From a virus, in IMG/VR virus record IMGVR_UViG_3300035162_001121, positions 1-31,026 of that record: a stretch of DNA of 31,026 bases; one strand, given 5' to 3'. Both the position numbers and the translations under genes were made by a program. This document shows, piece by piece, positions 3,209 through 28,355 of this stretch; positions within the stretch are counted from its first letter, which is position 1; every line of letters begins with the position of its first letter. The notes beneath the pieces are model-generated. The model had not been told where the DNA came from and made no database searches. It was given only the letters and a program-made list of their open reading frames with translations.

Positions 3209-3231
3209 CAGTACCATTCTAAGGAATAAAA

Positions 3232-4734: not shown

Positions 4735-4736
4735 GA

Positions 4737-4744
4737 GGTAAATA
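4737..4744 (+). promoter_or_regulatory. Degenerate late-promoter-like element before gp25
   Basis: GGTAAATA is followed by CAGTAT; the 12-mer taaatacagtat (4739-4750) is identical to one at 23663-23674. It matches the T4 late -10 (TATAAATA) only partly. A transcript from it would start at or inside the gp25 ATG, so promoter function is doubtful. Confidence 0.3.
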
Positions 4745-4748
4745 CAGT

Positions 4749-5255: not shown

Positions 5256-8200
5256 ATGTCATCAACAGACAGACAAAATAGACTTTTAGTAGCTGAAGAT
5301 TGGAAACGAATCTATCAGAGCTACCGAAATGCTGATTTTAAGAGTTACGATTTTGATAATTTACGTAGGACGATGATTAATTATCTACGTCAAAACTATC
5401 CAGAGGACTTTAACGATTATATTGAGTCAAGTGAATATCTTGCACTTATAGATCTTATTGCATTTTTAGGTCAAAACTTTGCTTTCCGCAACGATTTAAA
5501 TGCTCGTGAAAACTTCCTCGAACTAGCAGAACGTAGAGAAAGTGTATTACGATTAGCTAGGATGCTTTCTTATAATCCTAAACGTAATCAAGCAGCAAAC
5601 GGCTTACTTAAAATTGAAAGTGTACAAACTTCGGAAGAAGTGCGAGATTCAAACAATCTTAATTTAGCAAAACAAACTGTTATATGGAACGATCCTAGTA
5701 ATTCAAATTGGTACGAGCAATTTATAAAAATTATGAATTCTGCTTTGCCTGTAAACAACACATTTGGCAGACCTATTAAAAGTGAAACCGTAAATGGTGT
5801 TCCTACACAGCAATATCGCTTTAGTAGTTCTAATTCTGATATTCCTGTTTTTAGCTTTAATAAAGCAATTGACGGAATTACTAATAGATTTGAGATTGTT
5901 AGTACTGATATAGTTAATAGTAACATTGAAGAAGAAGCTCCTTTCCCAGGAAACAACTTTGCATTTTTATATAGAGATGACGGCCGAGGATCTGCAAGTT
6001 CTAATTCAGGATTCTTTTGTCACTTTAGACAAGGAACATTAGACCAAGGAGCGTTTACTGTTAACAATCCTAGTACAAATCAAGTAGTTGCAATTGATGC
6101 AACTAATATTAACAATAGTGATATTTGGCTTTATAAATTAGACAATTATGGCAATGAAGAAGAGTTATGGTCTAAAGTAGATGCAGTTGAAGGTAACAAT
6201 GTTATCTATAATAGTTTAAGTAAAAGTATTAGAAATATCTATAGTGTATTAACTAGAGCAAATGACAGAGTTAGTTTAATATTTTCAGATGGCGTGTTTG
6301 GTACGTTACCGCAAGGACAATTTAGAGCATACTACAGAACAAGTAAAAACAGAAGAATTGTTATTAATCCTGGCGACATGCGCGGCGTTAGTGTACGTGT
6401 TCCGTATTTGAGTAAAACTGGAAAACAAGAAACACTTACTATTGTATATCAGTTAAAGTATACTGTTGACAATAGTACAGTAAGTGAAACTAATGCAAGT
6501 ATCAAAGCAAACGCTCCAGCGACATATTACACTCAAAATAGAATGATTACAGCAGAAGACTATCAAATTGGTCCACTTGGTGTAAGTCAAGAAATTATAA
6601 AAGCAAAAAGTGTAAATCGAATTGCAAGCGGAATTAGTAGATATCTAGATCTAAAAGATGCTACTGGAAAATATTCTAAAACAAATTTATTTGGTATTGA
6701 CGGAATTGTTTATAAAGAATTTTTAACTCCTAAACAAACATTTAGTTTTACGACAAGAACTGATGTTGAAGGAGCAATTGTTAATACAATAGAACCTATA
6801 TTAAATGACAGAAAAATTAAAAACTATTATCTTAATACGTTTCCATTTTTCCTTCTAGGAGATCTTAATATTTCCTGGAATAATCTTACAACTGATACAA
6901 ACCAGTCAACAGGTTATTTTACTAATGCTAATAACCTGCGAACTGAATTAGGTACATTTACTGCGAGTACATTAAAATTAGTTAAATCAGATAGCTTGGT
7001 TAAATTTGAAGCACCGACAGGAAAATATTTTAATACTAAAAATAATAATGCATTAGTTAGTATTCCGTCAAGTGGAGTTATTCCGTTAAACGGAGTAACA
7101 TATAAATGGACAAAGGTTATTAGTGTTGTAGATAACGGTACTGTAACAAATGCCGACGGAACTGGTCCTGTTATTTTTAATGATATAATTCCTAGTACTA
7201 GTAAACTTATAGAAGTTAGACCTAGGCTAGCAATATCTTTACAAGACCAAGTTAAAACTCAAATTATTGATCAAACATTTGCTTATAAAACGTTTGGACT
7301 ACGCTTTGATACAAATATAGGCGAATGGCGTGTTATTACAAACAATAACTTAGACATTAGTAGTAACTTTAGTATTGGTAAAACTGGCGATAATACTAGT
7401 CAGCAATTAGATGCAAGTTGGTTATTGTTATTTGAAACCAACGGCGACAAGTATACTATTACATATCGGGCTAGTCGTTATGTGTTTGAGAGTGATGACG
7501 AGATTAGATTCTATTACGATTCGAGTGATAAAATTTATAATAATCAAACCGGTAAAGTTATTAAAGATAAAATTTCTGTATTAAGCATTAATACAAAACC
7601 AGACAGTACTGCTTCTTTTACTGAAGACTTTGAGTGGGAAGTAGTAGAAGAATATCGTGATGCAGAAGGCTATGTAAATAGTAAAAAGATACAAGTTAGT
7701 TTCTTTGATGAAGACGATGATGGCATAGTTGATGATCCGCAAATATTTGAAGAAATTGTAGACGAAGCATCTGCACCAACTACTAAGTATGTATTTTTAC
7801 AAAAGCGCACAGCTACAGACGGCGTTGAAGACTTTAACTATGTTCCTCAAGCAACGCACAATATTATTACCCTATCAACTAAGGATAATATTGGAGCATT
7901 AAGTCAGTACAATGACGCACAGGTATTTTATTATATTGCTGAAGATATATTTGAAGTATTAAATAAAAATGCCGGAACGTTAACTATTACGCAAGATTAT
8001 AAAGCAAGAATTGGCCGCGACAATTTAAAATTCCAGTATATACATGCAGCAGATGCAAGTGCAAGAATTGACCCAAGTGTAAGTAATATTATCGACACAT
8101 ACTTATTAACAAGAAGTTATGATACTAGTTATCGTCAGTATTTGGTTGGCACAACTGCTACTATGCCGCTAGCTCCTAGTTCAGATCAATTGTACTCAAA

Positions 8201-8699
8201 TTATGGCGCAGAAATTAATAAAATTAAATCATTAAGTGACGAAGTTATATATCATCCGGTTAAGTATAAGATACTATTTGGTGATAAGGCAGAAACTGAT
8301 TTGCAAGCTAAGTTTAAGATTGTTAAAAACCCAGATTTAGTTTTAAATAACAACGATGTAAAGTCAAGAGTTATTTCAGCAATTAATGAATTTTTTGCAT
8401 TAGAGAATTGGGAATTTGGAGAAACTTTCTACTTTTCGGAACTTAGTGCATATGTAATGCAGCAATTAGCACCAGACTTAGTTACGTTCGTTGTTGTTCC
8501 AAATCAATCTACACAAAGTTTTGGTAGTTTGTTTGAAGTTAAAGCAGAAGTAGATCAAATTTTTATTAGTGGAGCAACTGTAGACGATATTGATATCATT
8601 GACGCAGTTACCGCATCTAGACTTAAAGCAACTAATGCCGTTGTTACAAGTACAGCATCATCTAACGTAGGTATTCAGAGTATTAGGAGTAGCAATTAA
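5256..8699 (+). CDS. 6: Baseplate wedge subunit gp6, enlarged
   Basis: A 1147-residue gp6, the wedge backbone protein that forms the continuous inner ring of the baseplate. The N-terminus is typical (NLRRTMINYLRQNYPEDFND, SSEYLALIDLIAFLGQNFAF, then RENFLELAERRESVLRLARM). A baseplate-J-like segment near 428 (NRMITAEDYQIGPLGVSQEI) is followed by SGISRYLDLKDATG. The C-terminal signature runs from about 933 (SNIIDTYLLTRSYDTSYRQY) through NEFFALENWEFGETFYFSEL near 1040 to FEVKAEVDQIFISGATVDDI near 1093. T4 gp6 has 660 residues, so roughly 480 extra residues appear to sit mostly between about 450 and 930; that part is beta-rich and contains an acidic DEDDDGIVDD motif at 818-827. GAGGAA at 5243-5248 precedes the start. 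The stop overlaps the next ATG (TAATG). Confidence 0.9.
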   Translation: MSSTDRQNRLLVAEDWKRIYQSYRNADFKSYDFDNLRRTMINYLRQNYPEDFNDYIESSEYLALIDLIAFLGQNFAFRNDLNARENFLELAERRESVLRLARMLSYNPKRNQAANGLLKIESVQTSEEVRDSNNLNLAKQTVIWNDPSNSNWYEQFIKIMNSALPVNNTFGRPIKSETVNGVPTQQYRFSSSNSDIPVFSFNKAIDGITNRFEIVSTDIVNSNIEEEAPFPGNNFAFLYRDDGRGSASSNSGFFCHFRQGTLDQGAFTVNNPSTNQVVAIDATNINNSDIWLYKLDNYGNEEELWSKVDAVEGNNVIYNSLSKSIRNIYSVLTRANDRVSLIFSDGVFGTLPQGQFRAYYRTSKNRRIVINPGDMRGVSVRVPYLSKTGKQETLTIVYQLKYTVDNSTVSETNASIKANAPATYYTQNRMITAEDYQIGPLGVSQEIIKAKSVNRIASGISRYLDLKDATGKYSKTNLFGIDGIVYKEFLTPKQTFSFTTRTDVEGAIVNTIEPILNDRKIKNYYLNTFPFFLLGDLNISWNNLTTDTNQSTGYFTNANNLRTELGTFTASTLKLVKSDSLVKFEAPTGKYFNTKNNNALVSIPSSGVIPLNGVTYKWTKVISVVDNGTVTNADGTGPVIFNDIIPSTSKLIEVRPRLAISLQDQVKTQIIDQTFAYKTFGLRFDTNIGEWRVITNNNLDISSNFSIGKTGDNTSQQLDASWLLLFETNGDKYTITYRASRYVFESDDEIRFYYDSSDKIYNNQTGKVIKDKISVLSINTKPDSTASFTEDFEWEVVEEYRDAEGYVNSKKIQVSFFDEDDDGIVDDPQIFEEIVDEASAPTTKYVFLQKRTATDGVEDFNYVPQATHNIITLSTKDNIGALSQYNDAQVFYYIAEDIFEVLNKNAGTLTITQDYKARIGRDNLKFQYIHAADASARIDPSVSNIIDTYLLTRSYDTSYRQYLVGTTATMPLAPSSDQLYSNYGAEINKIKSLSDEVIYHPVKYKILFGDKAETDLQAKFKIVKNPDLVLNNNDVKSRVISAINEFFALENWEFGETFYFSELSAYVMQQLAPDLVTFVVVPNQSTQSFGSLFEVKAEVDQIFISGATVDDIDIIDAVTASRLKATNAVVTSTASSNVGIQSIRSSN

Positions 8700-11600
8700 T
8701 GTCATTTAATGATGATCAACAAGAACCAGCACTACCAGCAAATGGTTCTAGTAAACGTAAAAGCGAAAATCATTTACCACGGTATTATAGAACGCAGGCT
8801 AACAAAAAGTTTTTAAATAGTACCCTTGATCAATTAATCCAACCCGGTGTTGTAGAAAAAATTAATGGATATTATGGTAGAAAATCTGCAAAAGCATTTG
8901 AACAAAATGACAACTATGTTGGCGATGTTAGTTCTGCAAGAGAAAACTATCAATTTGAACCAGCAACAATAATTAAAGATGATTTAAATAATGTTAGCTT
9001 TTTTAAAGATTACAATGACTTTATTAATCAGCTAGACAGTTTTAACAAAGGCGAGAATGATCATAGTGTAGTTAACGCACAAGAATACTATGCCTGGAAC
9101 CCAAATATTGATTGGGATAAGGTGGCAAACTTTCGTGAGTATTATTGGTTGCCAACTGGTCCTCAATCAGTAGGTGTTGCTGGTAATACTGTTGATGTTG
9201 AAAGTACAATTAAAGTTTCTATAGGTGACAATGTTGATAACAATACCTATATGTTCTCTAATGCAGGAACTGTTAATAACCCTACTATTACTTTATATAG
9301 AGGAATGACTTATAGATTTGAAGTTGATACTCCAAATCTTCCATTTACTATTAAAACTCAGCGTACTTTAGAAGACGATTTTAATTTAGATTCAAGTTCA
9401 ATTTTAGTACTTGAAGGAGTAAGTTTACAAAATCTTGAAAAAGGAACAACTACTCTTCAAATAGGCGCAGATGTTCCTGACATAATTTATTATGTTGCTG
9501 GAAACGATATTAATGCTGCCGGTACTATCATTGTTAAAGATATAGATGAAGCTACATTTATTGATGTACAATCAGAAGTTATAGGAAAACGTTTTTATAA
9601 AACTTCTTCAGGATTCAATTTATCAAACGGTATGAAAGTTTATTTTTCTGGAATGGTAGAACCTGTAGCGTATTCAGAAGGTTATTACTATGTTGAAGGC
9701 GTTGGCGATAGTATTCAGTTAATTTCAGAAACTAGCCTAAACGTACCGTCTGCTTTTACTGACGATATTGTATTAGAATTTGACAACGACAATGTTGGCT
9801 TTGACAGATTACCGTACGGAAGTGCAATAGGTTACCCTAAAGATAAAGATTACTTTGTTATTAACAGAGCAAGTAAAGACGGAAATTTATGGAGTCGTTA
9901 TAATAGATGGTTCCATAAAAGTATTATTGAAGAATCAGCAAGAATAAACAATCAGCCAGTTGAAGTTGACCAGGCTCAACGAGCTAAAAGACCAATTATT
10001 GAATTTAATGCAGGTTTGAAGTTACATAAATTTGGCACAGAAGCAAAGACAGATGTTGATCTAGTAGACAATTACACAACTGATGCATTTAGCATAATTG
10101 AAGGATCTCAAGGTTATAATATAGACGGTATTGATATTGTAGAAGGCATGCGAGTCTTATTCACTGCTGACACTGATCTTCTAGTTAAAAACAAAATCTT
10201 TCAAGTAACTTATATTAACTTTGCAAGCGGTAGTGCAACTAATAGACAGATTCATTTAGTAGAAGTTAGCGATAGTACTCCATTAGAAAATGAAGTTATT
10301 CTTGTTAAAGACGGCACTTCTTTTAAAGGTAAGCAATTTTATTTTAACGGAACAACCTGGGCATTAACCCAAGATAAAACAAGCACAAATCAACCTCCAG
10401 TATTTGATGTGTTTGATAGTTTAAATGTTTCTTATAGTGATACTACAGTATATGAAGCAAATAACTTTACAGGAACAAAAGTATTTTCTTATAAAACCGG
10501 CACCGGTGCTGTTGATTCAGAAATTGGAATTGCACTAGCTTATAGAAATATTGCTAATACTGGTGATATTATCTTTGACTTTAATCTGTTGCAAGACACG
10601 TTTACTTACACTTTAGATAATGCTATTGTTACTAAGAGTACCGATGTTGGATTTTTAAGATCATACAGTAATAGAGTAACCTACAATACAATTAGTGGCT
10701 GGACAAAGGCTGAAACAGATAGTGACCAACCTGTAATTCGTCAATATGTATTTGACAATACGTCAACTGGTTTTGAAATTGACACTTATTTAGATAGCGC
10801 ATCTTTAACTGATATGTGGTTAAGGGTATATTTAAATAATGATTTACAATTTAAAGATGTTGATTATACAATATCAACGTCTACAAATAATAATTCAGTT
10901 ATTAATTTTGTTAACACGCTTACAATAGGCGATGTAATTATTATTAAGACTAAGACAGCAGCACTAAAAAATGATAATGGCTTTTATGAAATTCCTATTA
11001 ACTTAGAAAGAAATCCGCTAAATGAAAATATATCAGATTTTACATTAGGTGAAATAAATGACCATGTTAGTACAATTGTTGAAGGCACTGACGAATTTTT
11101 AGGAAAGTTTCCAGGTGTTGGTAATTTAAGAGATATAGGACCGATATCAAAGTACGGAAGACGCTTTGTACAACATAGTGCTCCTTTAAATTTAAGCCTA
11201 TATCACACTGTTGATAAAGATGCTAATATTGTAAAAGCTATTCGATTTGCAAAAAATGAATATGCGAAATTTAAAAGACTTTTTATATCAACTGCTAGTA
11301 GTTTAGGATATGACGGAGACGTTAAAACTCATGTAGATAAAATACTTGAAGAAATTAATAAAGACAAAACTAAAAGTATGCCATTCTTCTTTACAGACAT
11401 GGTAGCACTTGGCGCTACGAAAAAGAATACATATATTGTAGAAGATTCTAACTTTACGTTTTACGGACTAAGCCAAACTTTTTTACTTAGTGAACAAACT
11501 CGTAGGGCTGTACATGTTTACCTTAACGGAACGCAGTTAATACACCTTAAGGATTATACATTTAATACTGACGGATTTTGTGTAATAACAGCACCTAAAG

Positions 11601-14600
11601 CAGTAGATGATGTTATTGAAATCTACGAATATGAAAATACTAACGGTAGTTATATACCTCCTACTCCAACTAAACTTGGATTATTTCCAAAGTACGAGCC
11701 AACAGTATTTGTTGATGATACATATCAAACAAACACATTATCGATACAAGGACATGATGGCAGTATCATTGTTGCATATAATGACTACCGTGATGCTCTT
11801 ATTTTAGAATTAGAAAAGAGAATTTTTAATAACATTAAAGTAGAATACGATACTACACTATTTGATGTCCATGATTTTGTTGGCGGCGAATTTAGAAATA
11901 CTCAACTTGATAGAACAGAATTAAATAGTCCTATGTTAGGCGACTTTGTAGAATGGAGTAATTTAGTCGAATCTGATTATACATTACACAACTTCTTTGA
12001 GCGCACAAATAGATTTACATTTAATTATAAAAATTTACAATCACCGAGTGGAAAGACTGTTCCGGGTTTTTGGCGACAAATATATATAGAAGCATTTGAC
12101 ACAGATCGTCCGCATACACATCCTTGGGAAATGTTAGGATTTACTATTAAACCAACTTGGTGGGAAGCACAGTATGGCCCAGCACCGTATACTAAAGATA
12201 ATTTAATTTTATGGCAAGACCTTGAAAGTGGTGTCGTAAGAAAACCTAACAAAAAGTTAGTTACTTTAGAAAAGTATAAGCGCAATGGATTGACACAACA
12301 TATTCCAGTTAACGAAAGTGGTGAGTTATTGTCGCCTATTGATTGCGGATATATTAATAATTATAATTCAGGCGAAATTGACACTAGTTTTGTTTTTGGC
12401 GACGGAGCACCGGTGGAGGCTGCTTGGAGACGTAGTTCAGAATATCAATTTAGTTTATTAAGAAGTTTAGTAATTAATAAGCCAAATAAAGTTTTTGCAA
12501 CAGGGTTTGACAGAATTCGACAAGTGCGAAACATTGCAAACGAAATAGTTTATTCAGCTACTAACAAGCGAATTAAATTAAGTGATATAGTATTTCCAAA
12601 TACTTCAGTAGATACTACGCAGGTATATACATCAGGTCTTATAAATTATGTATTTAATTATATGGCATCAGATGTATTAACGTCTTACAATGCATATAAA
12701 TCAAATATTAAATCTATTAAAAATCAGCTAGGATTTAAAATTGCAGGATTTACAGACAAAGATAAATTTAGATTAATATTAGATAGTCGCACTCCTTTAA
12801 ACGAAGGCAATGTTTTTGTTCCGAATGAAAATTATCAAGTTATTTTAAACACAAGTTCACCTATTGAAACTATAAGTTATAGTGGTGTAATTATTGAACG
12901 TAGAGAAGACGGCTATGTTATTAAAGGATACGATAAAGAAGATACTACTTTTAGATTTCATAAAGCTGTGTCAACGCAAAAAGATCCAAGTATAAACATA
13001 GGCGGAATAAGCGAGCCTTTCTTAAACTGGGATTCAGCAAAACAATACGTTGCAGGTTCAAATATTGAATACCAGGGAGCATATTACAGAGTAAAGTCTA
13101 ACTTTATAAGTAGCACAGACTTTGATACAACTAATCTTTCTAAACTTTCATCACTACCGTTAATTGGTGGCAGAGATGCAGTTTTACGTAAATCGTTTGT
13201 TGAGATTGAAGACAACATAAAATACGGCACTTTAATACCAACAGTGCAAGGTGTTGTTGATTTTCTATTAGGTTACGGAAATTGGTTAGAATCAAAAGGA
13301 TTTGTATTTGATTATTATGACGGCGAAAGTAGTGCAGTATTAAATTGGCGACACAGTGTTAATGAATTCCTATTTTGGACAACACAAAATTGGGCATCAG
13401 GGAGTGTTATAACACTTTCGCCAGGAGCATCTCAGCTTAAATTTGTCTCACAATCTAGTGTAGTTGATAATGTGTTTGATCCGTTTTATGGATATTCGTT
13501 AATTAAATCTGATGGTAAAAAACTTATTGAAGAGTTTGCAAGTCTAGGAAGACAGCCAAATGAGTTTATATTAAGACCTAAGTCAACAGCTGATGGTATA
13601 TTTGGTATTAGACTACCACTAGTTCAAAAAGAACATGTAGTATTAATAGATAATAAAACTGTATTTGGCGATGTAATATATGACTTACAACCAGGATACA
13701 GACAAGAACGAATTAAAGTTTTAGGATACAGAACAGGTGAATGGGATGGCAGTTTAAATATCCCTGGATTTATATACGATGATGTTATTATCGAAGAATG
13801 GGAATCTTGGAAAGATTATACTATTGGCCAGGTTGTAAAATATAAAGAATTCTATTATAGTGCAGCTAATAAAATTCCTGGAGAAACTACATTTACTTCT
13901 TCTAACTGGAATAGATTAACTGACAAACCCGAATCAGGACTGTATGCAAACTTTGAATATAAGACAAATCAATTTGCAGATTTTTACGATCTAGATAGCG
14001 ACAACTTTGACACCGAACAGCAGCGCCTTGCGCAGCATTTAATTGGATATCAAAAGCGCACTTATCTTGAAAACATTATCAATGATAGTGTAAGTCAGTA
14101 TAAATTTTATCAAGGATATATTGCAGATAAAGGTACATCAAATGCTCTTACAAAATTATTTGATGTATTAAGCTCAGATGGTAAAGATAGTCTTGAGTTC
14201 TACGAAGAATGGGCAATTAAAGATGGCCAGTACGGAGCATCAGATGGATTTAACGAAGTTGAATTTAAATTAGATGAAAGTAAATTTAGACTAAGTCCCC
14301 AACCTATTGAACTTGTTAATAGTATAACTGGCAATGAAACTGATTTAACTTATCGTATACTACCTTATGAAGTATATTTAAAAGACTCTACCTACAACCA
14401 TGCTAGTGCATTTCCAGAAAAGACAATAACTGATACCTATGTTAAAAATGCAGGGTACGTTAATCAACAAGACGTTACTGGTATTACACGAAATTATACT
14501 GATATTGTAGAATTTAGTTATGCTCAAGTTAAACAGGGAGCGTACATTTGGACAGGTACTGATAACAGAACCTGGAATGTTTACCAACATGTGCTAACAA

Positions 14601-17600
14601 GTTATACTATTGAATCTATTAGTAAAGGAAACGGTACTGAGTTTACAATTACTGTTGATGCAACACCTGCAGATATTGCTGCTAATGATATAATTGGCTT
14701 TGGTGACGTTTACAAATACAATGCTGTTGGAAACTCAGATAGTTCAGCAAACGCATCCTATGAAAACTATGAGTTAGAAGGATTCTTTAAAGTAAAGTCT
14801 ATTTCTAATAATGTAATAACATTGTTAAGTAACAGCACTAATTCTGCTATCGACGGCGTTAGAGGGACACTTACTAAGTTTAGATCAGTTAGAGCAAGCA
14901 ACGCACTTGCAGCAAATGCAATTTTGCAAGCTGGCACAGAAAAAGATGAATTAGTTTGGATAGATGATAACGGATCAGGTTATTGGAATGTTCTAAAGAA
15001 TAATCAGCCTTATACTTCCCAACAAAAACTGTCAAATACAACAGCATCAAGTGATAACTATGGTACTGCAATTAGTGCAAATGATAGGAATACTACATTA
15101 TTAGTTGGCGCACCAGACTATGCTGATGGCAGAGTCTTTGTTTATAATAGACCTGCTAGTAGTACTAACTTCACACAAACACAAATTATTAATCCAGTTA
15201 AGTTTGGTGACGACGGCGAAAGATTTGGAGCAAGTGTAGCAATTAGCCCCGACGGCGAGTATGCTATGATAGGTTCGCCTAACGCTTCAAACGTTAAATC
15301 AAAATACGCAGGATCGTTTGTTGCAGCAACAGATTATAATAAAGGCTCAATTGTTTCTAAAGATCAAAGTTTGTGGCAGTCATTAATTGCTATACAAGGT
15401 CAAGAAGCTAACATTGAATTTTCTAGTTTTGCAAGCACAGTTGCAGCAGTTGAAACATTAGGAATAGACACAGATACTACATTGCAAGCACCTGCATTAT
15501 TGGTTGGAAATTACGCAATTGATGCTACTACTGGAAATTATGCATTTCCAGATACTCCTACTACCCACATTCTTGTTAGAGTACCATTAACAATGTATGA
15601 AGGAAGCGGAGTTGACGATCAAATTAGGTTATCGTGGAATACTAAAACTTATGCTAATCAAGACTTGTCAACCCTTACAGCACGACAGCCATTTAACGGA
15701 GACTATCCTTTAATAACTGCTGATTACTTAGAAGCATTAGACCGGACTATAAAGCATAAAGTAGATACAATTTTATATATTAATGCTGCTACTACTGTAC
15801 CGCAAGTTGGCGAATTAATAGAAACTAATGTTGCTAATGGAATAGTTGCGTATGTGTTTTCAGATGCATCAGAAACAGTAATATACTTAAAAAATACAAA
15901 TGGAACATTTAACAATACAGATAGTGTGTTTAAATCAAACGGCGACTTTATTGGCGAATACCTAAAACAGGCTCCTGTTGATAGTTTGGATACTTCAACT
16001 GTATGGGGTGGATATTGGTTTATAGAAACTAGTGGGTATACACCTACTACTGTAACTAACGCTAGTGATGAAGGTAAAGCACTAGTAATTTATGATGTTA
16101 TTACTGATAGTAGTGATACTGGTAGATTCTTTTACAATAGTTTAGAGTTTACAGCAAATGTATCAAGCAGTCAAAATACAATTGGAAGTTTAATTCAAAC
16201 TCTTAGTTTCACAGGTTCACCAGGACCTGCAGGTGTTAGTGGTGACTTTAAATCTAATCTCTTTGTTGTAAGAGCACCAAAACAGGTTACAGATAATTTC
16301 TCAGCAGGACAAACTATTGATCTTTATGTTAATCAATTAGCAAGATATAGCACACAATTTGTAAAAGATTTAACTTCTATTGGATTGGCATCTGAAGTTA
16401 CTAACAAATCACATGTAATTAACGATGTGTGGGATGGTTATATTAACTATGTAAACACTAAAAACTTGGTCGGAAACGCAATTGAGCCTAAAATCGGCAC
16501 AATTGTAAGAGATAAATCTAAAGGAGGAACAGCAGAAGTTGCGTTCTACCAACGTAGTAGTAATGACGTAACAATATATGTTAAAAACGTTACTGGTACT
16601 TGGTCACTTGGTGACGATTTTGCACAAAACGCTGAAATTGAATTCATTGGCGTACCTTCAGATTCTGATCCAGTATATCAAGTAGATCGTACTATGGGAC
16701 AAATACAAAATACCGGATTAGGGTATGATTCTGCAAATATTGGCGGATTGCTTGTTCTTGAAGCACCGGCACTGATTGAGGTTCCTGTAAGTAATACACT
16801 TATTGACGTTGAGTGCTGGATCTATAATAGCGGAACAGTACAAGGTATTCCTAGAGCTGCAAATGCCCCGACTCCTATTAATAATGACTGGATGCAAATT
16901 TACAAGATTCCAGCGGATGCAACTGGCACTGCTAGTGGGTTAACAAATGAAGGAACATATTCTTTATATAAAAAAGCTCGACCAGGAACGTATGACTTAG
17001 TAGGTACATATACTGTACCAGAAAAAGCAGCTAACTTCTTTTTAGGTAGCGAAATACAAATTACTAAATTTAATGATATATACAGAGCGTTTATTCATGC
17101 CAAGGGAGAAGAAACTTCGTCTAATCCAGGTAGAATTTATATGGTCAAAGACGGTACAGAAAATGGCAACACTTATGATTGGGAATATGCTAAGAATAAG
17201 AAGTTTAAAGGAGCATTTAGTGAGTCGTTAAGTTATTTTACTGGTGATATTGTATATCGTGATACGTTAACTGGAACATTGTATACTGCATTAACTAATA
17301 TAGCAGCAGGTACATTTAATGTATCTGATTGGACGTCAACTGATGATGTTATTGACTATGTTGGCTATATTCCAAATAATACTGGACTAAGTGTATTCAA
17401 TGATAGTTCGGTAATTTCAACAGTATTAGATCAAACAGATATGTATGCATTTGGTACGTCTTATGATGTTTCTAAAAATGGCGATGTGTTTATCACTTCG
17501 GCATTATACGAAAATTCACAGCCTAATAGAGTAGTTATATACCGTTCAAATAACGGACATTTTGAAAGACGCCAAGAAATACTTGCACCGACAAATACCA

Positions 17601-20600
17601 CAGGGTTTGGACAAAGCATATCAATTAGTGATGACGGTATGTTAATTGCAATTGGTGCACCGTATGACGATGATATCCAACTTGATCAAGGACTTGTTTA
17701 TATCTACAAGCAAGTAAACGGAACATTTGCGTTACAGCAAACTTTAAATAGTCCAAATAACGAACGTGCAGAAATGTTTGGCTGGAGCTTACAATTTGAT
17801 GGCGGAAATCTTGCCATAACAGCTAGAAATGCCGACTCTTATACTTCAACAATATTAGATGCTAATACTACTACACTTGATAAAGGATTTACTGGATTTA
17901 AAACGGTTAATGAAAATAGCGGAGTTGTATACTTGTATGAAAATTATAATAATACAATGCTATTTGGACAAACACTACAAGTTGCAGATATAGGAGTTAA
18001 TTACTTTGGTAGAAATATCCATACAAAAAATAATCATGTGTATGTAGGTTTACCAAATTTAACAGAACTAACTTTAAAAGGTCAATTACTTGACTTCCGT
18101 AAGCCTGAAAATACTGATATTTGGAGTATTCATAGTGCGTCAAAAACCGCGGTAGACATTGATAAAATTAAGAAATTATTTTTGTATGACACTGCAACAA
18201 AAGAATTAGTAACTTACTTAGATTACATTGATCCCTTACAAGGAAAAGTGTCAGGTGAAGCAGAACAAAATATTAGATTTAAAACATATTATGATCCGGC
18301 TACTTACACTAATACTGATGCTAGTGTATCAACAGTAGTAGTTGATGCAACTAACGGTTGGGGAGTAGAACATGTAGGCGAAGTATGGTGGAATTTAACT
18401 AACGCTAAGTTTATTAATCCTTACCAAGGTTCGGTAATTTATAGTACACAAAATTGGAATAAACTATTCCAAGGAAATAGCATAGATGTATATGAGTGGG
18501 TAGAATCTAGTATAATTCCTAGCAAATGGGATTTATTAGCAGATACTAACGAAGGATTTCCTAAAGGTTACAGCGGAACAAGTGTATACGGCGATGCAGT
18601 GTACTCTACAAAATCTGTATTTGACAGTGTTGCACAAAACTTTAAAACAAAATATTATTTTTGGGTTACTAACAAGAAAACAGTTCCGCAGGTTGAATTT
18701 AGAAATTTAACTATATCTGATATTAAAGCATATATCCAAGATCCGCAAAGTGCAGGCCTACGTTTTGCTGCATTAGTTAGTCCAACTCAATTTGTACTTT
18801 ATAACTGCGACGATTTGATTAAAGATAGTGATGTTGCATTAAGTGTGCAGTACTGGACTATTGAAAACCAAGAACAAAACATACATAATCAATATCAGAT
18901 TATATCCGATGGTTTAGAAACTAGTTTACCAAAGGCAGATATAACTAAAAAATGGTTTGATAGTTTAATCGGGTATGATGCACAACGTCGATTAGTACCA
19001 GATCCTGCACTAAGTGCAAAGTATAAGTATGGATCGTTGAATTCTCCAAGACAGAGTTGGTTTGTAAATAAAGTCGAAGCTCTTAAACAATTTATTGAAA
19101 GAACTAACAGTGTATTAGCAAAGAATTTAATTATTGATGATAAAGATATTACACCGTTATTTTTAAATGAAGTTGCTCCGTCTGCTGAAGAAAAGATTTA
19201 CGACACAACTGTAGAAACTCTTACAGACTTAGAATTTATTGGAGTTTCAAAAGCTACAAGAGCTAATATAACACCAATAGTTGAAGATGGTAAAATTATT
19301 CGAGTAGTTATTAATGATGCAGGACGAGGATATCGTGTTGCTCCGACAGTTACTGTTACCGGTAACGGTTCAGATGCAGTCATTGAATTAGGAATTAATA
19401 CAGTTGGCCAAATTACTAGTGCTACTGTAGTAGAACAAGGCACTAATTATGATAGTGCAACATTGTTAACTGTTCGTAGATTTACAGTATTAGTTAAGAG
19501 TGACAGTTCTATCCAAGGAAAATGGTCATTATATGAGCGTGTACAAGATACTATAGGATATTGGAACAGAATTAAAAGTCAGTCTTACGATACGTCACTT
19601 TACTGGAATTACATTGATTGGTATGCCACAGGATATAACGATTTAATTAGTATAGATTACTTAATAGATAATTCATATGAATTAACAAGTTTAGGTAATA
19701 GTACAGGTAGTATTGTTAAGATATCAAACATTGGCACAGGCGGATGGTTATTGCTTGAAAAGATAGCTAACCAAGATACATCAGATTATACTGTAAATTA
19801 TAAAACTGTAGGTAGACAAAACGGTACTATTGAATTTAAAGATTCACTATACAATTCTGCTTCGTCAAGTGTAGGTTTTGATACTATTAGTTTTGATACT
19901 AAAATTTATGACGGTGAGCCGATAGACGAATTAACAATTATATTAGCTGCAATTAAAGATAACTTATTAATTGACGAATTACAAATTGAATTTAATCAGC
20001 TATTCTTTGCTGGTTTGCGATATGTATTTTCAGAACAACCTTATGTTGACTGGGCGTTTAAGACTAGCTTCATTAAAGCAAAGCATAATGTAGGATCACT
20101 AAGAAAAGATATTACATTTAATAATGACAATCTGCCTAGTTACGAAGCATATGTAAAAGAAGTTAAGCCGTTTGCAACAAAAATTAGAGAATATTTAAGT
20201 GCATACGAAGGTCTTGATAATACAAATACTGTAGTGACTGATTTTGATTTACCTCCTAGCTACAAAGCTTCGCAAGGTAAAATAGTACCAGAATTAATTA
20301 CAATTTTAGATAACACATTAATCGGTGTTGATGCAGATATTGAAACATACCCAAATAAGAATTGGGTAGATAATAATTCTTATAAAATTGTTTCTGTTAA
20401 TGTTGTTAACAATGGTGCAGGATATTTAAGTACCCCACAGTTAATTCTAACAGGTGGCGGCGGATCCGGCGCTGAACTTAAAGCATACTTAGGCCGTGAC
20501 GGAAGAATTACTTCAGTAGATGTAGTTAATCCAGGCACAGGCTATTATAGTTCACCGACAGTTACAATAAATGGCAATTTGCGTGATAACGGAACTCCTG

Positions 20601-23600
20601 CAACTCTTAGTGTACAAATAGGAGACAATCCTGTTCGAGGAATTAAAACTGCTGTTAAGTTTGACAGAACAACAAGCGAATATTTACATACTGTATTAGC
20701 CCAGACACAAAATTTTGTAGGATCCGGCAGTAAGCTTAATTACACACTTACCTGGCCAATGGATTTAACCAACACTAATGTAACTGTTACTGTTGATAAC
20801 ATTGAATTATTAACTAGTGAATACAACTATACTAATATACTTGATGTAACTAAAGGATATGATAGATATTTTGGACAAATTACTTTTACTCAAGCACCTG
20901 CTGTAGATGCAGTTATTGAGATTGTTTATAAAAAAGCAGTAGAAATGTTGCATGCTCAAGATAGAATTAATAATTATTATCAATCAGTGCCCGGCCAGTT
21001 TGGAGCAGATCTTTCACAGTTAATGACTGGTGTAGATTACGGCGGAGTTGAAGTTAAAAGCTTTGGATTTGGCGGAGCTGGTGGCTGGGACGGCGATGAA
21101 TGGTATTCAGATACTTGGGATACGTCTTATGACACTACATTTGAAGATGAAACGTTTGTTATGGCAGACGATAGTACAACAGCGTATAATTTTGTTACTC
21201 CTCTTGAAGTAGGAACAATCTATAATGTTTATAAAAATGGCGTAAGAATTGACGATCCTAGCTTTGGATTAGCAGGACAAACTAATACTAATGCACTTAT
21301 TACTAGTATTACCGGCGCTGGCCAAACAAGTTGGATTCGTAGCGATGACGGAATAATTGCTAATAACGTGCTTACTTTTGATGAAGATGCAGTTACTTTT
21401 GCCACAGATGATGTTGTTATTATTAGAAAATCATCCAGCGACGGAACGTTTGATATTGATCCAGAAGGTTACGACACAATCCTAACTGGCGGCAACTTAA
21501 ACTATACAACCGCAACCGGCTTAAACGCAGCAGATATTACTATTGACGGTGATGGATTTGTAACACAAACTACAAGTGCTGGACCAGAAGAACTTGTTCC
21601 TGGACAACTACTCGACACTGTTGATATTACAGTATACGAAAGACCTAAAGGTGGATCTAGTCCGATTACTTCAAGAGTTTACATCGGCGACGGTACTACT
21701 AAAACTTTTGATATAGGTACAGCACCAATACTTGCTGAAAGCTTATTTGTTAAAGTTGGATTTGACATTAAAGCAGCAAGTGCATACACAATAAACTATG
21801 CAGCAAACTCTGTTACATTAACTACTGCTCCAAGTGTAAATGAAAAAATTAACATAACAACACTAGGTGTAAGTGGCACAAATGTATTAGATATTGACCA
21901 ATTTGTTGCAGACGGAAGTACTGCTGAATTTTTAACTAACGTTCGTTGGAGTAACAACTTATCTTATTATATTACAATTGACGGAGTTAAGGTTGAAAAT
22001 GTAATTTATCAATCCGATGCATCATACGAAGTTCCAAATAATGTAATAATTAGACTTGCATCAGCACCTGCGATTGGAAGCGTAATTAGATTTGCATTTT
22101 TTGAAAATAGCATTACAGATGTTCAAAACTTTAGTGAAGTGTTAATAGATAACTTTGTTGCAGATGGAAGCACTACTAGCTTTACACTAAGTCAAACTCC
22201 GTTTACTCAACAAGTAGAATCTTGGTTTGCTATTGTAAAAGTTAATAATAAAATACTAAATGCAGGCTATAATAAAAAGTTTACTTGTACAGCAGCCAAA
22301 TTAGAATATCAATTAGACGAATGGCAGCTTCCTGCAGGATCAGTTAGTGCTGGTCAAATCAAAGTGTTCTTAAAAGGAATAGAACTAGCATACATCGACG
22401 AGTGGTCGTTTATAGGTTCAGCAACTTCGGGTGTACAAAACGGTGCATTAATTAGGTTAACTAATGACGTTCTTCAACAAGATGGTGACATTTTACATGT
22501 TTACATTTTAAGTGATGGTGAATACCGCTTTGGCACATTTAATAATACTGAATTTACAGCTACACCCGGAGTACTTCATATAGACGGTGCTTATAATCCT
22601 GATGATACTATAACTGTATACCAGTTTAGTAACCATGATAGTCAAGGATTTGAAAGACTGCAATATGACGTAATTGATAGATTTAATGTTACAGCAGGCA
22701 ACGATGGTAGTACAATATCTGCAGAAGATGCAACATATCCTGAAGAATGGTATACTATACAGCATTTGCGTAACGGCTTAATTGAATTAAGAGCAGAAGC
22801 AATTGATGCACAGTACGTTTGGGTATCTATTAACGGTGACTTATTAACTCCTAATGTACACTATTATATTACTGATAATAAGCAATATGTCAAGATTGAT
22901 GCAACTATTAATGATAATGACACAATAGAAGTTATACAATTTTCTAATCCAATTACAACTAATAGATTTGGTTGGAGACAGTTTAAAGATATGTTAAACC
23001 GTACACACTATAAGCGGTTAGACGGCAGTAAAAATATTACTCTTGCACAAGAGTTAAACTGGTATGACAATGAAATAGTATTAATTAATGCTGATAGCTT
23101 ACCGACCCCTACGCCAAATTCTAAAATACCTAGTGTGCTCTTTATTGAAAGCGAGCGCATTGAATACTTTATTAAAGATGGTAACAGTATAAAGCAACTT
23201 CGTCGAGGAACACTAGGTACTGGAGTTAAAACAACGTATGATGCTGGTACAGAACTATACAACCAAAGTGTTGATGCTACAGTTCCGTATAAAGATGAAA
23301 CGCTAACAACGCAATTTATAGCAGACGGTACAACTGCAACTTACGAACTTGATTTTATACCTAACAGTGTAAATGAATTTGAAGTATTTGTAGCAGGAAA
23401 ACGTTTGCGTAAAAATGCTATTAGTGTATACACTATGCCAAATCCAACAGCGCAAGACAGTAGTGAAGGAGATACAACACTTGAAGCAGAGTTTAGTATT
23501 AATAGTGCTTCATTAACACTTCTAAATGCTCCTTTAGAAAATCAAAAGGTGATAATTATTAGAAGACAAGGTAAACTCTGGAATAATCCAGGTACTGCAT

Positions 23601-23665
23601 TAGCAAACGCTGATACAGACATTTCAAGATTCTTGCGTGCCACGTCTCCGGACGCACCGCGATAA
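8699..23665 (+). CDS. Giant modular baseplate-associated virion protein (4988 aa), in gp7 position
   Basis: One uninterrupted 14,967-nt frame. The position after gp6 is that of gp7 (1032 residues in T4), so a wedge-periphery role is likely, but homology to gp7 is inferred. Visible modules: N-terminal conserved part with NIDWDKVANFREYYWLPTGP (about 136-155); a PHTHPWE...KPTWW...YGPAPYT signature (about 1134-1165); GYRQERIKVLGYRTG...WDGSLNIPGF (about 1665-1695); aromatic segments resembling small carbohydrate-binding modules near 1444, 1704, 2205 and 2840; FG-GAP-like propeller repeats at about 2121 and 2176, then 2917, 2970, 3027 and 3102; GxGY glycine repeats near 3542, 3906 and 3945; and five [AG]D[GD][ST]T-type repeats between 4155 and 4900. 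No signal peptide, membrane segment or catalytic motif was recognised. I recall similar large 'virion structural proteins' in marine T4-like phages. AGGAG at 8685-8689 supports the start, which overlaps the gp6 stop by one base. Confidence 0.75.
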   Translation: MSFNDDQQEPALPANGSSKRKSENHLPRYYRTQANKKFLNSTLDQLIQPGVVEKINGYYGRKSAKAFEQNDNYVGDVSSARENYQFEPATIIKDDLNNVSFFKDYNDFINQLDSFNKGENDHSVVNAQEYYAWNPNIDWDKVANFREYYWLPTGPQSVGVAGNTVDVESTIKVSIGDNVDNNTYMFSNAGTVNNPTITLYRGMTYRFEVDTPNLPFTIKTQRTLEDDFNLDSSSILVLEGVSLQNLEKGTTTLQIGADVPDIIYYVAGNDINAAGTIIVKDIDEATFIDVQSEVIGKRFYKTSSGFNLSNGMKVYFSGMVEPVAYSEGYYYVEGVGDSIQLISETSLNVPSAFTDDIVLEFDNDNVGFDRLPYGSAIGYPKDKDYFVINRASKDGNLWSRYNRWFHKSIIEESARINNQPVEVDQAQRAKRPIIEFNAGLKLHKFGTEAKTDVDLVDNYTTDAFSIIEGSQGYNIDGIDIVEGMRVLFTADTDLLVKNKIFQVTYINFASGSATNRQIHLVEVSDSTPLENEVILVKDGTSFKGKQFYFNGTTWALTQDKTSTNQPPVFDVFDSLNVSYSDTTVYEANNFTGTKVFSYKTGTGAVDSEIGIALAYRNIANTGDIIFDFNLLQDTFTYTLDNAIVTKSTDVGFLRSYSNRVTYNTISGWTKAETDSDQPVIRQYVFDNTSTGFEIDTYLDSASLTDMWLRVYLNNDLQFKDVDYTISTSTNNNSVINFVNTLTIGDVIIIKTKTAALKNDNGFYEIPINLERNPLNENISDFTLGEINDHVSTIVEGTDEFLGKFPGVGNLRDIGPISKYGRRFVQHSAPLNLSLYHTVDKDANIVKAIRFAKNEYAKFKRLFISTASSLGYDGDVKTHVDKILEEINKDKTKSMPFFFTDMVALGATKKNTYIVEDSNFTFYGLSQTFLLSEQTRRAVHVYLNGTQLIHLKDYTFNTDGFCVITAPKAVDDVIEIYEYENTNGSYIPPTPTKLGLFPKYEPTVFVDDTYQTNTLSIQGHDGSIIVAYNDYRDALILELEKRIFNNIKVEYDTTLFDVHDFVGGEFRNTQLDRTELNSPMLGDFVEWSNLVESDYTLHNFFERTNRFTFNYKNLQSPSGKTVPGFWRQIYIEAFDTDRPHTHPWEMLGFTIKPTWWEAQYGPAPYTKDNLILWQDLESGVVRKPNKKLVTLEKYKRNGLTQHIPVNESGELLSPIDCGYINNYNSGEIDTSFVFGDGAPVEAAWRRSSEYQFSLLRSLVINKPNKVFATGFDRIRQVRNIANEIVYSATNKRIKLSDIVFPNTSVDTTQVYTSGLINYVFNYMASDVLTSYNAYKSNIKSIKNQLGFKIAGFTDKDKFRLILDSRTPLNEGNVFVPNENYQVILNTSSPIETISYSGVIIERREDGYVIKGYDKEDTTFRFHKAVSTQKDPSINIGGISEPFLNWDSAKQYVAGSNIEYQGAYYRVKSNFISSTDFDTTNLSKLSSLPLIGGRDAVLRKSFVEIEDNIKYGTLIPTVQGVVDFLLGYGNWLESKGFVFDYYDGESSAVLNWRHSVNEFLFWTTQNWASGSVITLSPGASQLKFVSQSSVVDNVFDPFYGYSLIKSDGKKLIEEFASLGRQPNEFILRPKSTADGIFGIRLPLVQKEHVVLIDNKTVFGDVIYDLQPGYRQERIKVLGYRTGEWDGSLNIPGFIYDDVIIEEWESWKDYTIGQVVKYKEFYYSAANKIPGETTFTSSNWNRLTDKPESGLYANFEYKTNQFADFYDLDSDNFDTEQQRLAQHLIGYQKRTYLENIINDSVSQYKFYQGYIADKGTSNALTKLFDVLSSDGKDSLEFYEEWAIKDGQYGASDGFNEVEFKLDESKFRLSPQPIELVNSITGNETDLTYRILPYEVYLKDSTYNHASAFPEKTITDTYVKNAGYVNQQDVTGITRNYTDIVEFSYAQVKQGAYIWTGTDNRTWNVYQHVLTSYTIESISKGNGTEFTITVDATPADIAANDIIGFGDVYKYNAVGNSDSSANASYENYELEGFFKVKSISNNVITLLSNSTNSAIDGVRGTLTKFRSVRASNALAANAILQAGTEKDELVWIDDNGSGYWNVLKNNQPYTSQQKLSNTTASSDNYGTAISANDRNTTLLVGAPDYADGRVFVYNRPASSTNFTQTQIINPVKFGDDGERFGASVAISPDGEYAMIGSPNASNVKSKYAGSFVAATDYNKGSIVSKDQSLWQSLIAIQGQEANIEFSSFASTVAAVETLGIDTDTTLQAPALLVGNYAIDATTGNYAFPDTPTTHILVRVPLTMYEGSGVDDQIRLSWNTKTYANQDLSTLTARQPFNGDYPLITADYLEALDRTIKHKVDTILYINAATTVPQVGELIETNVANGIVAYVFSDASETVIYLKNTNGTFNNTDSVFKSNGDFIGEYLKQAPVDSLDTSTVWGGYWFIETSGYTPTTVTNASDEGKALVIYDVITDSSDTGRFFYNSLEFTANVSSSQNTIGSLIQTLSFTGSPGPAGVSGDFKSNLFVVRAPKQVTDNFSAGQTIDLYVNQLARYSTQFVKDLTSIGLASEVTNKSHVINDVWDGYINYVNTKNLVGNAIEPKIGTIVRDKSKGGTAEVAFYQRSSNDVTIYVKNVTGTWSLGDDFAQNAEIEFIGVPSDSDPVYQVDRTMGQIQNTGLGYDSANIGGLLVLEAPALIEVPVSNTLIDVECWIYNSGTVQGIPRAANAPTPINNDWMQIYKIPADATGTASGLTNEGTYSLYKKARPGTYDLVGTYTVPEKAANFFLGSEIQITKFNDIYRAFIHAKGEETSSNPGRIYMVKDGTENGNTYDWEYAKNKKFKGAFSESLSYFTGDIVYRDTLTGTLYTALTNIAAGTFNVSDWTSTDDVIDYVGYIPNNTGLSVFNDSSVISTVLDQTDMYAFGTSYDVSKNGDVFITSALYENSQPNRVVIYRSNNGHFERRQEILAPTNTTGFGQSISISDDGMLIAIGAPYDDDIQLDQGLVYIYKQVNGTFALQQTLNSPNNERAEMFGWSLQFDGGNLAITARNADSYTSTILDANTTTLDKGFTGFKTVNENSGVVYLYENYNNTMLFGQTLQVADIGVNYFGRNIHTKNNHVYVGLPNLTELTLKGQLLDFRKPENTDIWSIHSASKTAVDIDKIKKLFLYDTATKELVTYLDYIDPLQGKVSGEAEQNIRFKTYYDPATYTNTDASVSTVVVDATNGWGVEHVGEVWWNLTNAKFINPYQGSVIYSTQNWNKLFQGNSIDVYEWVESSIIPSKWDLLADTNEGFPKGYSGTSVYGDAVYSTKSVFDSVAQNFKTKYYFWVTNKKTVPQVEFRNLTISDIKAYIQDPQSAGLRFAALVSPTQFVLYNCDDLIKDSDVALSVQYWTIENQEQNIHNQYQIISDGLETSLPKADITKKWFDSLIGYDAQRRLVPDPALSAKYKYGSLNSPRQSWFVNKVEALKQFIERTNSVLAKNLIIDDKDITPLFLNEVAPSAEEKIYDTTVETLTDLEFIGVSKATRANITPIVEDGKIIRVVINDAGRGYRVAPTVTVTGNGSDAVIELGINTVGQITSATVVEQGTNYDSATLLTVRRFTVLVKSDSSIQGKWSLYERVQDTIGYWNRIKSQSYDTSLYWNYIDWYATGYNDLISIDYLIDNSYELTSLGNSTGSIVKISNIGTGGWLLLEKIANQDTSDYTVNYKTVGRQNGTIEFKDSLYNSASSSVGFDTISFDTKIYDGEPIDELTIILAAIKDNLLIDELQIEFNQLFFAGLRYVFSEQPYVDWAFKTSFIKAKHNVGSLRKDITFNNDNLPSYEAYVKEVKPFATKIREYLSAYEGLDNTNTVVTDFDLPPSYKASQGKIVPELITILDNTLIGVDADIETYPNKNWVDNNSYKIVSVNVVNNGAGYLSTPQLILTGGGGSGAELKAYLGRDGRITSVDVVNPGTGYYSSPTVTINGNLRDNGTPATLSVQIGDNPVRGIKTAVKFDRTTSEYLHTVLAQTQNFVGSGSKLNYTLTWPMDLTNTNVTVTVDNIELLTSEYNYTNILDVTKGYDRYFGQITFTQAPAVDAVIEIVYKKAVEMLHAQDRINNYYQSVPGQFGADLSQLMTGVDYGGVEVKSFGFGGAGGWDGDEWYSDTWDTSYDTTFEDETFVMADDSTTAYNFVTPLEVGTIYNVYKNGVRIDDPSFGLAGQTNTNALITSITGAGQTSWIRSDDGIIANNVLTFDEDAVTFATDDVVIIRKSSSDGTFDIDPEGYDTILTGGNLNYTTATGLNAADITIDGDGFVTQTTSAGPEELVPGQLLDTVDITVYERPKGGSSPITSRVYIGDGTTKTFDIGTAPILAESLFVKVGFDIKAASAYTINYAANSVTLTTAPSVNEKINITTLGVSGTNVLDIDQFVADGSTAEFLTNVRWSNNLSYYITIDGVKVENVIYQSDASYEVPNNVIIRLASAPAIGSVIRFAFFENSITDVQNFSEVLIDNFVADGSTTSFTLSQTPFTQQVESWFAIVKVNNKILNAGYNKKFTCTAAKLEYQLDEWQLPAGSVSAGQIKVFLKGIELAYIDEWSFIGSATSGVQNGALIRLTNDVLQQDGDILHVYILSDGEYRFGTFNNTEFTATPGVLHIDGAYNPDDTITVYQFSNHDSQGFERLQYDVIDRFNVTAGNDGSTISAEDATYPEEWYTIQHLRNGLIELRAEAIDAQYVWVSINGDLLTPNVHYYITDNKQYVKIDATINDNDTIEVIQFSNPITTNRFGWRQFKDMLNRTHYKRLDGSKNITLAQELNWYDNEIVLINADSLPTPTPNSKIPSVLFIESERIEYFIKDGNSIKQLRRGTLGTGVKTTYDAGTELYNQSVDATVPYKDETLTTQFIADGTTATYELDFIPNSVNEFEVFVAGKRLRKNAISVYTMPNPTAQDSSEGDTTLEAEFSINSASLTLLNAPLENQKVIIIRRQGKLWNNPGTALANADTDISRFLRATSPDAPR
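8765..9165 (+). other. Conserved N-terminal module of the giant protein
   Basis: This part of the giant gene encodes residues of about 23-155, with LPRYYRTQANKKFLNSTLDQ, a YYGRKS turn, and the tryptophan-rich EYYAWNPNIDWDKV...REYYWLPTGP ending. It is the segment I most strongly associate with large wedge-periphery proteins of marine T4-like phages. It is therefore the likely anchor to gp6 and the rest of the baseplate. The anchoring role is inference from the terminal position and the adjacent gp6 gene. Confidence 0.5.
12098..12250 (+). other. HPWE/KPTWW signature segment of the giant protein
   Basis: Encodes residues about 1134-1184: DTDRPHTHPWEMLGF, then KPTWWEAQYGPAPYT and NLILWQDLESGVVRKP. 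The density of Trp, Pro and His is far above the surrounding Asn/Thr/Asp-rich sequence, which marks a structured, probably conserved core. The H-T-H pair at 1139 and 1141 could bind a metal, but no family with known metal binding is recognised. Confidence 0.45.
15059..15290 (+). other. FG-GAP-like propeller blades, first group
   Basis: Encodes two repeats of the pattern FG.S.aIS.d...l.vGaP......v.vY: YGTAISANDRNTTLLVGAPD from residue 2121 and RFGASVAISPDGEYAMIGSP from about 2175. These match the FG-GAP repeat of integrin-alpha-type beta-propellers. Only two blades are present before the pattern stops at about residue 2197. Confidence 0.6.
17441..18105 (+). other. FG-GAP-like propeller blades, second group
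   Basis: Encodes four further repeats at residues of about 2917 (AFGTSYDVSKNGDVFITSAL), 2970 (GFGQSISISDDGMLIAIGAP), 3027 (MFGWSLQFDGGNLAITARN) and 3102 (YFGRNIHTKNNHVYVGLPN), with VVIYR, GLVYIYK and GVVYLYE strands between them. Together with the two blades about 720 residues upstream they would give a six- or seven-bladed propeller if they pack together. Confidence 0.6.
19280..20620 (+). other. GxGY glycine-rich beta repeats in the giant protein
   Basis: Three copies of a GxGY...P.v.vtG.G..A repeat are encoded near residues 3542 (DAGRGYRVAPTVTVTGNGSD), 3906 (NNGAGYLSTPQLILTGGGGS) and 3945 (NPGTGYYSSPTVTINGN), with linking strands such as GRITSVDVVN and GQITSATVVE. I know this repeat type from structural proteins of marine phages. 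The last two copies are adjacent; the first is separated from them by about 350 residues of a different, helical-looking sequence. Confidence 0.55.
21161..23420 (+). other. C-terminal DGST-type fibre repeats of the giant protein
   Basis: Five segments share [AG]D[GD][ST]T..F followed by strands and an aP..g..i.i end: residues about 4155 (MADDSTTAYNF), 4328 (YIGDGTTKTFDIG), 4401 (QFVADGSTAEF), 4485 (NFVADGSTTSFTLS) and 4872 (QFIADGTTATYEL). Such repeats form stacked beta modules in phage fibre and tail-tip proteins. Copies three and four are also close at DNA level: ttgttgcaga[c/t]ggaag[t/c]act occurs at 21903 and 22155. Confidence 0.55.
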
Positions 23666-23685: not shown

Positions 23686-24300
23686 ATGACAGACAACATA
23701 AATGAAAAAAGCGGTATACTAATGCAGGGTCATATTAAAATATTTGAACCTGAGACAGGCAATGTTCTTATCGATAAGAGGAATGCAATTCATTATGAAA
23801 ACATGAGTATTTCATTAGCTGAAAGTATAGGTAATGGTGGTACTGGTTGGATTTATGAAATGGGGTTTGGTAACGGCGGCACTAGTGTTGACCCAACAGG
23901 TATTATTACATACCTAACTCCAAACAGCACAGGCACAAATGCTAGTTTATATAACGAAACATTTACAAAAGTAGTTGATGACAGATCGATTAATAACTTA
24001 GATCCTGCAAGAAATAAAATTGAAACTCGACATGTAAGTGGTACAAATTATACTGATGTATTAATTAGTTGCTTACTTGATTACGGTGAACCAAGTGGCC
24101 AAGACGCATTTGATACAGCAACAGATGGTGATAGTTTGTATGTATTTGATGAATTAGGTCTAAAGGCTTATTCAGCTAACGGTACTGGACGTCTACTAAC
24201 ACATGTTATTTTCCACCCTGTGCAGAAAAGTTTAAACAGATTAGTACAAATTGATTATACGGTTAGAATACAAAGTTTAACTGGATTTAACGAGGGATAA
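23686..24300 (+). CDS. Conserved virion protein of unknown function
   Basis: A 204-residue protein. I know similar sequences from marine T4-like phages only as unnamed structural proteins. Recognisable stretches are GHIKIFEPETGNVLIDKRNA near residue 15 and WIYEMGFGNGGTSVDPTGII near 55. The C-terminal part is beta-rich (LLTHVIFHPVQKSLNRLVQI). No signal peptide or membrane segment is visible. It lies between the giant protein and the fibre genes, the region where T4 has gp8-gp11, so it may be a baseplate-edge or fibre-attachment protein; no sequence match to those T4 proteins is apparent to me. AGGAAA at 23675-23680 precedes the ATG, and a GATAAATA element is at 23661-23668. Four bases separate it from the next gene. 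Confidence 0.6.
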   Translation: MTDNINEKSGILMQGHIKIFEPETGNVLIDKRNAIHYENMSISLAESIGNGGTGWIYEMGFGNGGTSVDPTGIITYLTPNSTGTNASLYNETFTKVVDDRSINNLDPARNKIETRHVSGTNYTDVLISCLLDYGEPSGQDAFDTATDGDSLYVFDELGLKAYSANGTGRLLTHVIFHPVQKSLNRLVQIDYTVRIQSLTGFNEG

Positions 24301-28317: not shown

Positions 28318-28320
28318 TGC

Positions 28321-28328: not shown

Positions 28329-28355
28329 CAATTGTACAAGGGGTTTAAATAAAAC

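Follow-up and report, generated by a model that had tools for sequence, protein, structure and literature searches.

Gene content of the window

The window, which is the complete 31,026-base IMG/VR record, is a genome fragment, and gene content is known for this fragment alone. All genes described here lie on the plus strand, in the order gp53-type protein, 799-residue virion protein, gp5-type protein, gp25-type protein, gp6-type protein, giant protein, 204-residue protein and three fibre-like paralogues; together they form a baseplate operon. The gp53-type wedge protein (506..808; PF11246, phrog_7145) is followed by the uncharacterised 799-residue virion protein (809..3208; phrog_11190) and by a gp5-type hub/spike protein (3232..4734; phrog_13211) in which we found OB-fold and spike-like domains only, both below cut-off. 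While T4 gp5 has a lysozyme domain, Pfam and PHROG scans of the gp5-type hub gave no lysozyme domain match. Next come a gp25-type sheath initiator (4749..5198; PF04965 over cut-off, phrog_261 and phrog_43) and a gp6-type baseplate wedge protein of 1,147 residues (5256..8699; phrog_10646 with E=1.7e-300, phrog_219).

The gene that follows gp6, at 8699..23665, begins with ATG, is preceded by an AGGAG motif and continues for 4,988 codons without an internal stop. Its start codon overlaps the stop codon of gp6 (TTAATG), which bears out the first-pass annotation of a single intact frame directly after gp6. The product has a computed mass of 555.7 kDa (approximately 556 kDa) and a pI of 4.63, and belongs to the phrog_10938 family. 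A chance origin of this 14,967-nt frame is ruled out by conservation: 46 IMG/VR homologues align to the giant over 991 residues with 49-69% identity, and four relatives of 4,577-4,999 residues are full-length.

Downstream of the giant lie an uncharacterised protein of 204 residues (23686..24300; phrog_11259) and the three fibre-like paralogues (24305-29879), which have an N-terminal domain in common. The first of them ends in a phage collar domain (24305..26407; PF07484), the second is at 26404..28317, and the third ends in an autoproteolytic chaperone-like (Peptidase_G2-like) domain detected below cut-off (28356..29879; PF11962).

A widespread family of very large virion proteins

The giant matches phrog_10938, a 3,324-position model annotated as "virion structural protein", in four stretches with E=0 and 1,099.7 bits, and its sub-segments also match this model separately in the PHROG scan. 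A tblastn search with the first 1,200 residues found homologues in 84 phage records, with identities under 60% throughout. The closest isolate is Agrobacterium phage Atu_ph07 (32.5% identity, 4,449 residues); further homologues are found in Pseudomonas phage PA5oct and its relatives (30.7% identity, 3,857 residues), Salicola phage SCTP-2 (3,807 residues), and CBB and other RaK2-type phages (3,340 residues). ORF325 of XacN1 (3,313 residues) is still more diverged, but is a collinear member of the family (1e-55), so that isolate homologues span 3,313-4,449 residues. At least 598 matching stretches were confirmed among at least 600 listed in a scan of IMG/VR, and four uncultured relatives could be joined to full length, with 4,932, 4,999, 4,914 and 4,577 residues. 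All four are followed by the same 204-residue protein and fibre-like genes as in the window.

With these findings, the giant adds a very large new protein to a family that is known and widespread but uncharacterised; that its family might be known already had been suspected when the sequence was first read. The isolate members CBB_236, phAPEC6 gp245, PA5oct gp355 and AP-J-162 gp58 resemble it in possessing both conserved cores, in their place after gp6 and in the order of blocks. They differ in sequence and size: identity to the nearest isolates is about 31-33% in the N-terminal part, and the giant is 500-1,700 residues longer, its propeller region being larger and extra repeats being present toward the C-terminus. 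Phage proteins of up to 7,694 residues have been described before (PMC7162821). The giant is ordinary in its family and its slot; its size and the scant knowledge about it are unusual. Although numerous in IMG/VR and encoded by well-studied jumbo phages, members of the family are annotated just as "structural" or "hypothetical".

Gene order is strict in this family, with gp6 directly upstream of the giant in 80 of 81 loci. The exception is SCTP-2, where gp6 was not detectable in the slot before the giant; this slot (10606-19896 of locus L004, ORF 141) is taken by a beta-propeller repeat protein of 3,096 residues that matches phrog_8401.

Members of the family are virion proteins in several isolates. 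CBB_236 is reported from virions with 21 unique peptides (PMC5259590), and the 381.9-kDa gp245 of phAPEC6, whose gene adjoins that of gp244 annotated as "baseplate wedge", with 17 peptides (PMC7247149). The database record of PA5oct gp355 notes detection by mass spectrometry, and AP-J-162 gp58 (4,455 residues) is listed as structural (PMC11242549). By analogy with these relatives, the giant of the window is probably a virion component as well. Peptide coverage in the published datasets is low, about 8% (PMC7247149, PMC5259590), and the portions of the CBB, phAPEC6 and AP-J-162 papers drawn on here neither assign a function to the homologue nor report processing (PMC5259590, PMC7247149, PMC11242549).

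Anatomy of the giant protein

Conservation mapping divides the protein into a conserved core A (about residues 1-1900; 8699..14398), a variable middle part (1900-3100), a conserved core B (about 3136-3850; 18104..20248), which is kept in distant isolates, and a variable C-terminal part. Core A opens with an aromatic block at residues 1-155 (8699..9163) that is retained in Atu_ph07, PA5oct, SCTP-2, CBB and XacN1. A profile search with this block alone matched phrog_10938 (E=4.7e-26), so the N-terminus, described earlier as conserved, is indeed conserved family-wide. Residues 1000-1650 are predicted, for the most part confidently (pLDDT about 85), to adopt a fold which matched only family members in BFVD and, apart from one small carbohydrate-binding domain, nothing convincing in the PDB using Foldseek. 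This domain, at residues 1440-1485 (13016..13153), is of the chitin-binding CBM5/12 type; PF02839 reaches it below cut-off (E=4.6e-4), and its predicted structure matches chitin-binding domains with Foldseek probabilities of 0.99-1.00. Residues 1697-1742 (13787..13924) resemble it and constitute a candidate second CBM5/12-like domain, which served as a model seed and is therefore not independent. Core A also contains a helical block at residues 1735-1875 (13901..14323), among the best conserved parts of the protein, which we refer to as the KGT block.

The variable middle part contains FG-GAP propeller blades in two stretches, residues 2118-2210 (15050..15328) and 2967-3085 (17597..17953), with FG-GAP_2 (PF14312) scoring 49.6 bits (cut-off 23). 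Alignment with relatives revealed an insert between the blades at residues 2240-2725 (15416..16873). This insert of approximately 490 residues corresponds to 8-13 residues in four relatives and to 455-759 residues in the other marine ones, and modular exchange is therefore directly evidenced. GxGY repeats occur as one pair at residues 3524-3594 (19268..19480), which resembles cyanophage wedge proteins (phrog_2885) and Dpo31/36 tail proteins, and as a second pair identified by the PHROG scan at 3896-3974 (20384..20620); the repeats match phrog_460 and phrog_701 in addition to the cyanophage baseplate-wedge families phrog_2885 and phrog_708. Toward the C-terminus, a repeat model located three Ig-like "DGST" repeats at residues 4326-4559 (21674..22375) and a further copy at 4870-4958 (23306..23572), after an RRGTLGT motif. 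Two more copies (4004-4077 and 4702-4764) were found by models for which they had not been used as seed. The PF14312 match, the CBM5/12 fold, the PHROG matches and the repeat models together confirm the initial description of a mosaic of propeller, aromatic, GxGY and DGST modules.

Searching PDB sequences with the full protein, two segment profiles, the KGT block and the CBB homologue was useful only for the CBM and GxGY modules. For segment 3140-4140, Foldseek gave matches to chains from phage tails and necks, which were short with high rmsd and were set aside. A viral scan with the C-terminal 1,288 residues returned zero loci, its patterns being too specific.

The KGT block and its possible similarity to gp7 and gpI

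The KGT block reads FYxGxIxxKGT...EEWAxxxGxYG. Ten of its positions are invariant among 31 sequences (G49, Y55, Q66, F69, Y70, G72, K77, G78, E103 and G112), and the block is retained as far as XacN1 in the form KGT...EFW...AEFG. When it was aligned by hhalign with profiles of P2 gpI, T4 gp7 and cyanophage gp7, the best match fell on a KGT motif each time, in the same register, with non-significant probabilities of 3.6, 0.3 and 2.1%, respectively. The P2 gpI profile was built from GTDB genomes because every relative in IMG/VR had an identity of 99% or more. Of 62 windows placed along the giant, only the two with the KGT block hit KGT in all three profiles; with gpI and with cyanophage gp7 they took the top rank, which they did not with T4 gp7. 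Column-shuffled controls covered KGT in 3-5 of 100 trials per profile. The motif was spotted by eye before testing, and the three gp7-type profiles are not independent. This similarity at the sequence level is suggestive and no proof.

Other comparisons gave no sign of common descent with gp7. Whole-length hhalign of the giant with T4 gp7 yielded no match (probability below 1%), and a Pfam scan detected none of the gp7 domains (Gp7_helical, Gp7_5th, Gp7_6th), of which Gp7_5th exceeds its cut-off only in T4. Tail_P2_I (PF09684) did not match the giant either, an uninformative negative since this model misses T4 gp7 too. When the KGT block was scanned with Pfam and PHROG models, its own PHROG was the sole convincing match. 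The first-pass annotation had called the giant a wedge protein in the gp7 position: the position holds, with gp6 directly upstream in nearly all loci, whereas descent from gp7 finds no support in the T4 gp7 profile. Predicting structures by segment, as had been proposed for comparison with gp7, gp8 and gp10, went partly against this assignment, as two confidently predicted segments matched neither these proteins nor any solved wedge protein. The decisive helical core, predicted alone by AlphaFold, formed helices at low confidence (pLDDT about 33), which might be expected if this segment folds only together with gp6.

The giant and T4 gp7 are thus alike in gene position after gp6 and possibly in a KG motif within a helical core; they differ in length, T4 gp7 having 1,032 residues and the giant nearly five times as many, and in Pfam domains and profile similarity. 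P2 gpI is likewise the third gene in W-J-I and has KGT followed by E-W about 22-25 residues later, but it is a protein of 176 residues with no significant profile match to the giant. The cyanophage S-SSM7 offers a parallel in size: SSSM7_101 and SSSM7_103 (phrog_4406 and phrog_2885; 3,007 and 3,001 residues) also follow gp25 and gp6 and are annotated as gp7; near its N-terminus, the former of the two matches T4 gp7 at the KGT motif (94.9%). Cyanophage gp7 shares GxGY repeats with the giant at significant scores, and these are the only significant matches of its profiles, the KGT match standing at about 2%. Its KGT core lies near the N-terminus, in contrast to a position near residue 1,800 in the giant, and the conserved cores lack significant similarity. 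S-SSM7 also has separate gp8 and gp9-type genes, which Pfam models do not detect over cut-off in four isolate relatives of the giant.

Proposed role in the baseplate wedge

We consider it probable that each baseplate wedge has the giant as its third subunit, which occupies the position of gp7 or gpI and serves as an outward scaffold. The main support for this role is gene position. The order gp25-gp6-giant-fibres parallels W-J-I-H of P2 and 6-7 of T4, and in phage A-1(L) the order is gp30-gp31-gp32-fibres and the wedge is a (gp31)2-gp32 heterotrimer (PMC10966104). Also in favour are the start codon overlapping the gp6 stop, the conserved KGT block, the homologues detected in virions, the S-SSM7 proteins annotated as gp7 in this slot, and the lack of gp8-gp11 domains over cut-off in four relatives. 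The central helical block (about residues 1735-1875) would pack against two gp6 chains at their N-terminal helices, and the flanking regions, of approximately 1,700 residues on the N-terminal side and 3,100 on the C-terminal side, would extend outwards as a peripheral frame, presumably in six copies per virion. This frame may hold the fibre proteins encoded downstream. Exposed, interchangeable CBM5/12, FG-GAP propeller, GxGY and Ig-like modules may touch sugars on the host surface, and an adhesin role is plausible. Points against a wedge subunit are the lack of significant similarity to T4 gp7 or P2 gpI, the T4 gp7 profile not ranking KGT first and the two unmatched segments. If the giant is a wedge subunit, this would account for baseplates without recognizable gp8-gp11, show where a whole group of phages carries its adhesin-like modules, and make the KGT block with gp6 a defined structural target.

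Alternatively, the giant could be a peripheral adhesin or fibre anchor whose gene stands after gp6 by happenstance, the true gp7 equivalent being small and encoded elsewhere. Adhesin-type modules do dominate the protein, no confident gp7 similarity was found, and gp7-type subunits can be very small, gp32 of A-1(L) being described up to about residue 151 (PMC10966104). We regard this alternative as unlikely given the strict gene order across very diverged phages and the strongly conserved central KGT block, whose retention would be unexpected in an adhesin that faces outwards. The unusual tail whiskers reported in RaK2-type phages such as CBB (PMC5259590) and phAPEC6 (PMC7247149) might also be made of a large, repeat-rich protein of this kind. 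However, the gene lies within the wedge operon, and a filament decorating the sheath needs many copies, at odds with the low peptide coverage recovered in those phages as far as reported (PMC5259590, PMC7247149), making a whisker protein very improbable.

The relation to gp8-gp11 bears on a further alternative, a polyprotein that fuses the functions of gp7, gp8, gp10 and gp11 and from which cleavage during assembly releases the individual wedge proteins. Pfam models of gp8, gp9/10 and gp11 (PF09215, PF07880 and PF08677) found none of these in the giant or in the other window genes scanned. When the whole genomes of Atu_ph07, PA5oct, SCTP-2 and CBB and four uncultured contigs (75-122 kb) were searched, again nothing exceeded the cut-offs. 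As positive controls, all three models found T4, and those of gp8 and gp9/10 found S-SSM7. The earlier remark that no gp8, gp9, gp10 or gp11 is recognizable nearby therefore stands at Pfam sensitivity and extends to four relatives' whole genomes. This absence and the separation of conserved blocks by variable linkers would suit a polyprotein, as would the low published peptide coverage, which leaves full length unproven. On the other hand, we found no protease or cleavage motif and no family member with the blocks as separate genes, and no report of processing came up in the portions of the literature covered, so that we judge cleavage improbable.

The absence of gp8-gp11 does not show that the giant replaces them: some of their tasks could fall to the fibre-like paralogues encoded downstream. 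We infer that the giant may act as an adhesin and may replace several peripheral baseplate proteins. A bolder and rather doubtful suggestion is that in each wedge one chain of approximately 5,000 residues performs the tasks of T4 gp7, gp8, gp10 and gp11 together, so that the rim would consist of six giants whose exposed modules are exchanged to alter surface contacts.

Observations at other loci

In Vibrio phage 2.275.O, the annotation of the gp6-type protein (25903-29766 of locus L315), encoded beside the giant, includes a carbohydrate-binding module 5/12; such modules therefore decorate more than one wedge protein. At another locus (L070:11123-11125), the giant gene has a single in-frame TAG at approximately codon 379, the other 4,159 codons being open and conserved; TAG reassignment, a recent mutation or a sequencing error may account for this. 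The record of locus L049 has, downstream of the giant, genes of a KDO-8-phosphate synthase, KdsA, over the NCBIfam cut-off (L197:10666-11439), and a uroporphyrinogen decarboxylase-like protein, HemE, with 257 bits and below cut-off (L197:12434-13375). Standing amid phage genes, these two are possible host-derived metabolic genes.
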